Assembly: GCA_017445475.1 (NCBI GenBank)
Contig: JAFSUB010000010.1
Location: forward strand, 1-38,628
Direction of reading: 5' to 3'
Source of the DNA: Alphaproteobacteria bacterium
GTDB taxonomy: Bacteria; Pseudomonadota; Alphaproteobacteria; RF32; CAG-239
Length of the DNA: 38,628 nt
Positions 10,487 through 23,113 of this stretch are shown in pieces (position 1 is the first letter of the stretch; the number at the start of each line of letters is the position of its first letter). Both the position numbers and the translations under genes were made by a program. Below the pieces are notes generated by a model that had not been told where the DNA came from, did no database searches, and saw only the letters and a program-made list of their open reading frames with translations.

Positions 10487-11296
10487 TTAAAAATAATAGA
10501 AAAGCCCAAGATTGAAATCAATGGTATGGTTTAATTTGCCCCAATCATCCATTTTTGTTCCGTGGTAATCTGCGATTTCCGAGCCTTTTGTATTAATCAA
10601 ATTAAAACGAGCTAAACCGCGCAAAGCCAGATTGTCAGTCATAAAGTACTCCGCACCGACACCAATTCTGAAACCGACTTTATTTTCGCTTTCGCTATCA
10701 CTTTCACTTCCATAAAGGATACCAGAAGAGGAACTACTGACAACACTATACGTCCCTGAATATTTCAATTTGTAAAATCCGACACCGACAGAGCCTAAAA
10801 ATGAAAAGCCCTCATCAACAGGAAGATATCCCAGCAAATCGATTGCAAAAGTTTGCAAATCTGCCTCTGTTTTAAAATTTGCATTATCTGTAAGGTCATA
10901 TCCGGTATAACTGTAATTTGAAGAACCTTTTGCTTTATTTGATTTTTGATAAGAAAGTTCAACTGCAAAATTCGGATGAAATTTCAAACCTGCCGAAAAA
11001 CCCAAAGAATGAAATTTATCATCAAATATTTTATAATTTTCATCACCAAAAAGTGTTATATCATCGTCAAAATCAGCCATTGAATATGCATATGATACGC
11101 CGAGATAGGGGTGAATATAACGGCTTTCGATATACTGCTGCTGGGGTTGCACGGAAGGTGCGGCATTTTGTTGATAATAGTTTTGCTGATAGGGCGTGTG
11201 ATAATATTGCCTCTGATTTTGATAATATTGTGCCTGCGCACTCAAACTCATCAAAGAAATCGCCGAGGCGAGCAATAAAGTTTTTTTCATATTCAT
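10487..11296 (-). CDS. Outer-membrane beta-barrel protein
   Basis: About 269 aa with signal peptide ending LSAQA near residue 22. A Tyr/Gln-rich linker (residues 23-57) comes next, then an eight-strand-type porin-like barrel. The barrel has IHPYLGVSYAYSMADFDDD, FAVELSYQKSN, FSFLGSVGVGFYKLKYSG and VGFRIGVGAEYFMTDNLALRG, and the last residues FNLGLFYYF form a C-terminal Phe signature for BAM insertion. AAAGGA lies 3 nt before this start and 9 nt before a second Met at 11290, which may be the real start. It is preceded by the structured leader at 11325-11480 with its own terminator, so expression is probably attenuated. It resembles the barrels at 33258 and 37546. Cargo unknown. Confidence 0.88.
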   Translation of the reverse strand: MNMKKTLLLASAISLMSLSAQAQYYQNQRQYYHTPYQQNYYQQNAAPSVQPQQQYIESRYIHPYLGVSYAYSMADFDDDITLFGDENYKIFDDKFHSLGFSAGLKFHPNFAVELSYQKSNKAKGSSNYSYTGYDLTDNANFKTEADLQTFAIDLLGYLPVDEGFSFLGSVGVGFYKLKYSGTYSVVSSSSSGILYGSESDSESENKVGFRIGVGAEYFMTDNLALRGLARFNLINTKGSEIADYHGTKMDDWGKLNHTIDFNLGLFYYF

Positions 11297-11324: not shown

Positions 11325-11354
11325 AAAAAAAACCGTTTTGAAAAAACAAAACGG
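11325..11354 (-). terminator. Intrinsic terminator inside leader copy 1
   Basis: On the minus strand CCGTTTTG (11347-11354) pairs perfectly with CAAAACGG (11333-11340) around six T, then eight T. It lies between the leader RNA and the start codon, so it would switch the gene off when formed. Confidence 0.85.
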
Positions 11355-11480
11355 GGAGCTAGTAAACTGTCCGAGAACAGACTCTCTTATTCGAGCAAAA
11401 TGCCTTATTTCAAGAACTCCCCTCGGCGAGGAGTGCTCTCGGATATTTGAGTGTTTACTAGACACCACGGCAATCTGCCG
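11325..11480 (-). ncRNA. Candidate cis-regulatory leader RNA, copy 1
   Basis: On the minus strand this precedes the beta-barrel gene by about 30 nt. Elements in 5'-3' order are as follows. P1 hairpin GGCA/TGCC (11469-11479). P2 CTAGTAAAC (11453-11461) with GTTTACTAG (11359-11367). Inside it P3 TCCGAGA (11437-11443 read as complement) with TCTCGGA (11370-11376). A P4 hairpin ending in GGGGAG (11417-11422). The core ATAAGGCATT (11399-11408). Then CTCCCC (11353-11358), overlapping an intrinsic terminator. The GGGGAG can pair with P4 or with CTCCCC (a pseudoknot). A second copy at 22690 has the same layout with compensatory base changes. A weak promoter (TTGATT 11511-11516, AACTAT 11488-11493, spacing 17) would start the RNA at P1. 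No known riboswitch class recognised. The rest of the 11297-11603 gap holds only the cupin terminator. Confidence 0.7.
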
Positions 11481-22477: not shown

Positions 22478-22652
22478 AACTGTCACCCCTTTTTTGCATT
22501 AGCAAAAATCAAGGGGTCTTTGAATTAAGTTAAAAAGTATCCGAAGATGGTTTGACGCATTTGCCTTTCAGGCAAAGCGAGCCATGACAGTTTTTGTTTT
22601 TTGAAGATGGCTTGACGTTTTTTAGCAAAAAACGAGCCATGACAGTTGTTTT
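22478..22652. repeat. Cluster of three palindromic repeat hairpins
   Basis: Two tandem copies of a unit begin GAAGATGGYTTGACG and end CGAGCCATGACAGTT. Copy 1 is about 22543-22594 and copy 2 about 22603-22651. In each the outer ATGGYT pairs with AGCCAT past a bulged TGA. The inner stems differ in sequence but still pair: CGC/GCG plus TTTGCC/GGCAAA in copy 1, CGTTTTTT/AAAAAACG in copy 2. A third hairpin (about 22478-22519) has CCCCTT...AAGGGG arms and begins ACTGTCA, the complement of the TGACAGT ends. This is a REP-like palindromic family of unknown role. The stretch 22404-22477 has nothing else recognisable. Confidence 0.8.
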
Positions 22653-22656
22653 TTTC

Positions 22657-22685
22657 TTTACATTTCAAACAAATCTTTGCATAAT
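22657..22685 (+). promoter_or_regulatory. Promoter of leader RNA copy 2
   Basis: TTTACA (22657-22662), exact 17-bp spacer and CATAAT (22680-22685). The expected start, near 22692, coincides with the first base of the P1 hairpin. Confidence 0.65.
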
Positions 22686-22689
22686 GGCG

Positions 22690-22846
22690 TTGCAACCGGT
22701 TGGTTGCGGTGTTTACTAAACATCTTACCAATAAGCTCCACTTTTTGGGGAGTTTCGGATATAAGGCATTAGCACGAATAACGAAAACTGCATTGGTACA
22801 GTTTAGTAGCTCCCCGTTTTGAGATTTTTTTTCAAAACGGTTTTTT
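22690..22846 (+). ncRNA. Candidate cis-regulatory leader RNA, copy 2
   Basis: Same layout as the minus-strand copy at 11325-11480. P1 is GCAACC/GGTTGC (22692-22707). P2 is TTACTAAAC (22713-22721) with GTTTAGTAG (22801-22809). P3 is TACCAAT (22726-22732) with ATTGGTA (22792-22798). P4 CTCC (22736-22739) pairs with GGAG (22749-22752). The core ATAAGGCATT is at 22761-22770. GGGGAG (22747-22752) can instead pair with CTCCCC (22810-22815), which is joined to a terminator. P3 has a different sequence from copy 1 yet stays fully paired, and P2 shows a G-C to C-G exchange. That is direct support for the fold. It lies 30 nt before the ATG at 22877. The ligand or signal is unknown. Confidence 0.72.
22814..22846 (+). 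terminator. Intrinsic terminator inside leader copy 2
   Basis: CCGTTTTGA (22814-22822) pairs with TCAAAACGG (22832-22840), then six T. Its first two C residues overlap the CTCCCC strand of the proposed pseudoknot, so pseudoknot and full terminator compete. Confidence 0.85.
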
Positions 22847-22876: not shown

Positions 22877-23113
22877 ATGCTTGATCAAGAAATCAGAAAA
22901 ACGCTCGGCCGCCTCATTTTTGAAGAACGCCAAAAAGACAACACGCACGTAGAAGCCTGTTGCAGGGCGCTTAACATAAGCCCGCTTGCGTATGAAAAAA
23001 TAGAACTCGGCCTAAACCGCACAGGCTGGGTAAGGTTTGAAAAAGCCCTCAAATATTTTCATAAAAAAATCAAAATTGAGCTTGTTGACGACAAAACAAA
23101 AGACAAGCTTTAA
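22877..23113 (+). CDS. Small HTH-like protein under leader control
   Basis: 78 aa with a good ribosome binding site (GGGAGTT, 22864-22870). The order EACCRALNISPLAYEKIELG followed by FEKALKYFHKKIKIEL resembles the scanning and recognition helices of an XRE-type HTH, with a short charged tail. This is a weak structural guess; I do not recognise the family. It lies directly behind leader RNA copy 2, is monocistronic, and ends at a hairpin shared with the converging gene. Confidence 0.75.
   Translation: MLDQEIRKTLGRLIFEERQKDNTHVEACCRALNISPLAYEKIELGLNRTGWVRFEKALKYFHKKIKIELVDDKTKDKL

Follow-up and report, generated by a model that had tools for sequence, protein, structure and literature searches.

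The 157-nt leader RNA encoded at positions 22690-22846 of the window (the whole stretch of 38,628 nucleotides that was analysed) very probably represents a new class of cis-acting, riboswitch-like transcription attenuators, as judged from comparison of sequences. The original prediction had described this copy and a second one in the window as a leader with a competing terminator. Two copies by themselves were too few to prove covariation, whereas 188 sufficed. The elements named for copy 1 (promoter, P1-P4, the core ATAAGGCATT and CTCCCC fused to the terminator) are all present in the sequence, as are the replacement of P3 between the two copies (TACCAAT/ATTGGTA in copy 1, TCCGAGA/TCTCGGA in copy 2) and an internal C-G/G-C swap in P2. 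A promoter had been placed before both copies; TTTACA/CATAAT of copy 1 bears this out, whereas that of copy 2 is a poorer match to the consensus. That account is here extended by the number of copies, the confinement to a single order, the surface proteins among the targets and a second local hairpin (GGUG..CAYC). The unit reads, 5' to 3', as promoter, 5' hairpin, predicted bistable RNA, terminator and a start codon about 63 nt past CUCC, with the following parts.

22657-22685 (+): candidate sigma-70-type promoter of copy 1, from sequence; TTTACA 22657-22662, 17-nt spacer, CATAAT 22680-22685
22690-22846 (+): leader RNA copy 1, 157 nt; covariance-model core 22708-22819, 107.2 bits
11325-11482 (-): leader RNA copy 2; model core 11349-11466, 93.1 bits
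22692-22707 (+): P1, 5'-terminal hairpin of copy 1, GCAACC/GGTTGC
22708-22721 (+): P2 of copy 1, 5' strand; covariation
22708-22714 and 22718-22724 (+): P2a, local alternative hairpin of copy 1, GGTGTTT/AAACATC
22726-22732 and 22792-22798 (+): P3 of copy 1, TACCAAT/ATTGGTA; two-sided changes in 7/7 pairs
22735-22739 and 22747-22752 (+): P4 of copy 1, GCTCC/GGGGAG, the putative anti-antiterminator hairpin
22747-22752 (+): 5' strand of the putative antiterminator, GXGGAG (GGGGAG in copy 1); X at 22748; potential partner 22810-22815; X-X' covariation
22754-22757 and 22782-22785 (+): P5 of copy 1; covariation
22758-22765 and 22775-22781 (+): internal loop inside P5 of copy 1, GATATAAG/CGAATAA; invariant unpaired positions
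within 22754-22785 (+): P6 of copy 1, a small hairpin
22788-22801 (+): CTG...CAG bracket flanking the P3 3' strand, invariant; candidate alternative hairpin P7
22801-22813 (+): P2 3' strand, with CTCC pairing with the 5' GG(U/A)G; covariation
22810-22815 (+): CTCCCC, that is CUCCX'C, common to the P2 base, the antiterminator and the terminator base; X' at 22814, which within the terminator has 22840 as its partner
22814-22846 (+): intrinsic terminator of copy 1, from sequence; CCGTTTTG...CAAAACGG, then T6
copy 1 RNA: invariant unpaired nucleotides GAUAUAAG/CGAAUAA, CUG and CA
22877-23113 (+): gene behind copy 1, a 78-aa small protein of an XRE-like group, itself without a Pfam match
10487-11296 (-): gene behind copy 2, an exported protein whose group matches OMP beta-barrel families

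Both leaders form much more stable folds than their dinucleotide shuffles, with z-scores of -4.7 for copy 1 and -5.4 for copy 2. Just upstream of the promoter of copy 1, at 22541-22646, the window holds two similar hairpin units (gaagatggYttgacg...cgagccatgacag) that resemble a small repeat.

Comparison across copies argues strongly for the helices of the leader, and covariation in further homologues held in independent sets of sequences. An alignment of 106 copies to the model had standard pairs in 97.8% of its pair cells, compared to 72.4% after shuffling; two-sided changes occurred in 26 of the 32 pairs, and the covariation score was 0.697, against 0.070-0.086 in slid versions of the alignment. 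A set of 57 copies, mostly from more divergent genera, kept 94.7% of its pair cells and scored 0.626 for covariation (0.086 when slid). Both alignments had been fitted to the structure, a bias in favour of structure, but the margin lies far above the slid controls. RNAalifold, applied to an unfitted MAFFT alignment of 21 copies, gave two-sided changes in 16 of 27 pairs. Seventeen unpaired positions are at least 95% identical across the copies.

Individual helices differ in their behavior. In 159 of 188 copies, P1 forms a perfect stem of 6 bp or longer; shuffled controls gave 5. The first five pairs of P2a are complete in 164 of 188, compared to 28 in the control, while within the main set alone covariation of P2a was not above shuffling. 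Other genera carry a coordinated U-A to A-U change in P2a, and leaders that start with GGAG have CUCC as the partner; this GGAG/CUCC change may be a single coordinated event. P7 (CUG..CAG) is invariant apart from one compensatory case, which makes support for it weak, and we do not regard it as a proven helix. Immediately upstream of P1, the promoters of the listed copies resemble one another in their -35/-10 arrangement. Plain counting of -10 elements gave no more than in shuffled AT-rich sequence, and hence the promoter call is based on the -35/-10 arrangement. P3 changes faster than the other parts throughout the family: between copies with 85-90% identity in the remainder, 40% of the P3 sites differ and 4-14% of the P5 sites. 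This could be due to free drift, diversifying selection or template switching. In one tandem pair (L349, 347-453 and 590-697) all seven P3 pairs differ and the positions sampled in P2 and P5 match exactly.

The expression platform was predicted from an alternative pairing of GGGGAG with either P4 or CTCCCC, and this pairing covaries across the copies. CUCCX'C, which lies directly behind P2 and ends in the base of the terminator, is a potential partner of the P4 3' strand, GXGGAG. The X-X' combination was Watson-Crick in 153 of 177 copies (GC 90, AU 42, UA 14, CG 7) and GU in another 12, the four pair types all being represented in several genera; the mean in shuffled controls was 69, and shuffles within genera gave a mean of 99 and a maximum of 121. 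In a genus g8 example, P4 is UCCAC/GUGGA and the antiterminator GUGGAG/CUCCAC. Here and in other copies X is paired in both helices, as competing helices require. Genus g10 has U-U at X in 9 of 11 copies, in a different register, and the exact antiterminator helix there may therefore be shifted. A U-run follows CUCC in 187 of 188 copies, in keeping with a terminator; in genus g9 (L342:213-300, L343, L344) some terminator hairpins seem to be split by a long loop insert. The comparative data point to P4 and the antiterminator as mutually exclusive helices, and covariation supports a terminator/antiterminator switch.

With the antiterminator imposed, the predicted folds contained P2a and often a hairpin resembling P7; the median cost was 12.4 kcal/mol. 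By simple folding, the ON fold is less stable than the OFF fold by 1.4-31 kcal/mol, and it would thus need kinetic or ligand help. In copy 1, the antiterminator takes away only the two basal G-C pairs of the terminator. We infer that the units are transcribed from their promoters and control termination in the cell, in the direction proposed here and in response to a ligand. Transcription would begin with P1. The OFF fold would have its 5' half paired over long range with its 3' half through P2 and P3; P4 would sequester the antiterminator strand GXGGAG, the 5' GG(U/A)G would hold CUCC, and the terminator would form. In the ON fold, GXGGAG would pair with CUCCX'C and remove the base of the terminator stem; the 5' end would close on itself as P2a, CUG/CAG would possibly close round the P3 3' strand as P7, and RNA polymerase would read through into the gene. 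The signal would bind the invariant unpaired nucleotides GANAUAAG/CGAAUNA, CUG and CA.

The position of the leader before genes is borne out across the copies. In 159 of 188 copies, CUCC is followed by a Shine-Dalgarno sequence and ATG no more than 150 nt away, at a median distance of 63 nt (quartiles 59-67). A small HTH-like gene downstream, as described for copy 1, proved typical: the open reading frame was of at most 130 aa behind 93 of the 188 leaders, many of these matching XRE-type HTH families, larger behind 51 and prepilin-like behind 8; the remaining leaders lacked a clear gene, were part of a tandem array or lay at the end of a contig (about 33 of 188, in tandem units or at contig ends, lack an evident adjacent gene). 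The small frames form a divergent group that matches XRE/Cro-C1-type HTH families (HTH_25 in 19 of 52, HTH_3 in 17 of 52) and is HipB- or DdrO-like in profile comparison with structures. A BspA-type LRR_5 match was found in 31 of 58 larger frames; further matches were to outer-membrane barrels, to Lcl_C or to the motif of prepilin methylation. In the genus of the window, many of the downstream genes encode BspA-type LRR surface proteins, alongside prepilins and outer-membrane proteins. In genome G008, 26 of 63 leaders stand directly before a same-strand LRR_5 gene, and none does with the strand flipped. The prepilin-like proteins (behind leaders at L104, L119, L027, L143, L018, L032, L042 and L340, in two genera) have a common start, GRSM(V/I)EMLGVLA(I/V)IGVLS. 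With two competing folds, the leader probably decides the transcription of genes whose products are small DNA-binding regulators or surface proteins.

This arrangement bears on two other readings. The terminated 157-nt transcript might act in trans as a stand-alone small RNA, the gene behind it being incidental. Complete promoter-to-terminator units of constant size fit such a role, as do tandem arrays of up to four units with a gene behind the last only (L349). However, a small RNA needs neither a constant distance and orientation relative to SD and ATG, as seen in 159 of 188 copies, nor the strand-specific association with LRR_5 genes, nor a covarying antiterminator helix that overlaps the terminator, and we regard this reading as improbable. 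Attenuation by ribosome stalling on a leader peptide is far less likely still. A GTG frame is open through the leader in both copies of the window, but it is open in only 17 of 151 copies, no commoner than in shuffled sequence (16.3) or in the other frames (16 and 12); we found no conserved short open reading frame and rejected the explanation. Tandem arrays of two to four complete units occur at L349:101-961 (genome G041), L350, L351, L352, L343, L148, L152 and L155, each unit with its own promoter and terminator and, as far as seen, a gene only behind the last.

The family is dense in its carriers and narrow in its range. By blastn, ten matching places came up in the genome of the window and many others in its genus. 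With the covariance model of the core, the counts were 9 in the window's genome, 85 in G003, 63 in G008 and 31 in G007; with a second covariance model they were 85 in G003 and 64 in G008. Members were found by covariance-model search in 65 of 101 genomes of the bacterial family, and carriers made up 97 of 153 genomes and 14 of 17 genera of the order, with 1-85 copies per genome of about 1.2-1.8 Mb. To our knowledge, one copy per about 16 kb in a reduced genome of 1.4 Mb would be exceptional among known riboswitch classes. Matches in a class-wide sample of 385 genomes were confined to the window's bacterial family and one weak match, and a phylum-wide sample of 398 genomes had a match in the window's own genome alone; the leader family is essentially absent from the rest of the Alphaproteobacteria. 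We treated a weak match outside the order (G317, L100, 38 bits), which has no P1, promoter and terminator layout, as chance. A DNA-pattern scan of named genomes returned at least 89 stretches, titled as uncultured proteobacterial MAGs, mostly Alphaproteobacteria; several of the matches listed came from the rumen or gut of named animals, and one from Methylomonas among them was provisionally treated as chance. The carriers, RUG13121 and RGIG5118 among them, belong to an order of uncultured bacteria from gut and rumen, which we take to be RF32 in GTDB. One copy (L301:1501-1615, G047), about 190 nt upstream of an mnmG-like frame (tRNA modification) and apparently without a good terminator, is probably decayed.

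Such numbers, up to 85 copies in one genome, and the location of several copies close to contig ends could also suggest a mobile or repeat element, dispersed through the genome and bearing a promoter and a terminator. We consider this very unlikely. Copies within one genome are only about 60-71% identical on average, yet their pairing is conserved, and they keep a constant distance and a single orientation to the genes that follow them. The same DNA pattern was absent from the viral contigs searched, a blastn search of plasmids was negative, and the one match to phage records was of 47 nt over the terminator region in a single record. A mobile or phage origin was rejected on these grounds, the copies being old and diverged. 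Contigs end shortly downstream of the leader at L106, L110, L123, L141, L149, L152, L173, L338 and L354, mostly after about 30-130 nt and within 1 kb in L106, as if assemblies broke at the repeated leader or gene starts.

The proposal that the leader belongs to no Rfam class was upheld. Across the whole window, a tRNA was the sole match to reach its gathering score in Rfam 15; permissive scans of both copies gave sub-threshold chance matches only, and no family reached the gathering threshold in 16 further divergent members. The ribosomal protein L10 leader (RF00557) aligned by chance to the terminator region of copy 2, at 18.3 bits and thus below its gathering score of 44. A T-box leader was likewise rejected, with no Rfam match and with HTH and surface-protein genes downstream. 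We found no earlier description of the family in the open-access literature, subscription journals being outside this coverage. Together, the Rfam negatives and the covariation support the prediction of a riboswitch-like leader with a competing terminator.

Of the features expected of a riboswitch, conserved structure with covariation was found, and an expression platform with mutually exclusive helices is indicated by the pairing patterns. We compared the family with riboswitches of the transcription-terminating kind (orphan riboswitch candidates; review PMC7266159). It resembles them in its conserved structured core with invariant unpaired nucleotides, in the predicted competition of terminator and antiterminator helices and in its place in the 5' leaders of many mRNAs. 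It is unlike them in that it targets XRE-like regulators and surface proteins instead of one metabolic pathway, reaches 85 copies in about 1.4 Mb, is confined to one bacterial order and begins at the 5' end of the transcript. The c-di-GMP riboswitches occur in many copies per genome, ahead of surface, pilus and regulator genes. The new leader is also multi-copy before such genes but, unlike them, matches no Rfam class. GGDEF is present in 10 of 11 genomes of the window's genus, with about one clear GGDEF protein each; G009, a relative without a detected leader, also has a GGDEF protein. The presence of GGDEF speaks neither for nor against c-di-GMP as the ligand.

The target genes point to no single metabolite or metabolic pathway. 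This, together with the large invariant unpaired core, would suit an antiterminator whose fold is set by an RNA-binding protein and not by a small molecule; a search for CsrA brought up no candidate protein, and we hold this reading to be doubtful. None of 16 carrier genomes yielded a CsrA gene, although a very divergent CsrA could escape detection; a Csr/Rsm type of control is therefore unlikely, and we set a CsrA target aside on this basis. Among triggers, we judge a small molecule the most likely, at roughly an even chance, a protein clearly less so, and another RNA the least favored of the three. A fuller reading of the attenuator is conceivable, although we lean slightly against it: a new riboswitch class, probably with a signalling-type ligand, whose regulon would span the order and comprise dozens of small XRE regulators and of surface proteins, and whose fast-changing P3 may give each copy its own identity.

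The covariation of the antiterminator makes the mechanism directly testable by a compensatory mutant of a few bases. If the leader senses a metabolite or signal, it would be the main leader-based control layer now visible in this uncultured lineage of the gut and rumen, and that control would be aimed straight at genes of surface display and regulation.
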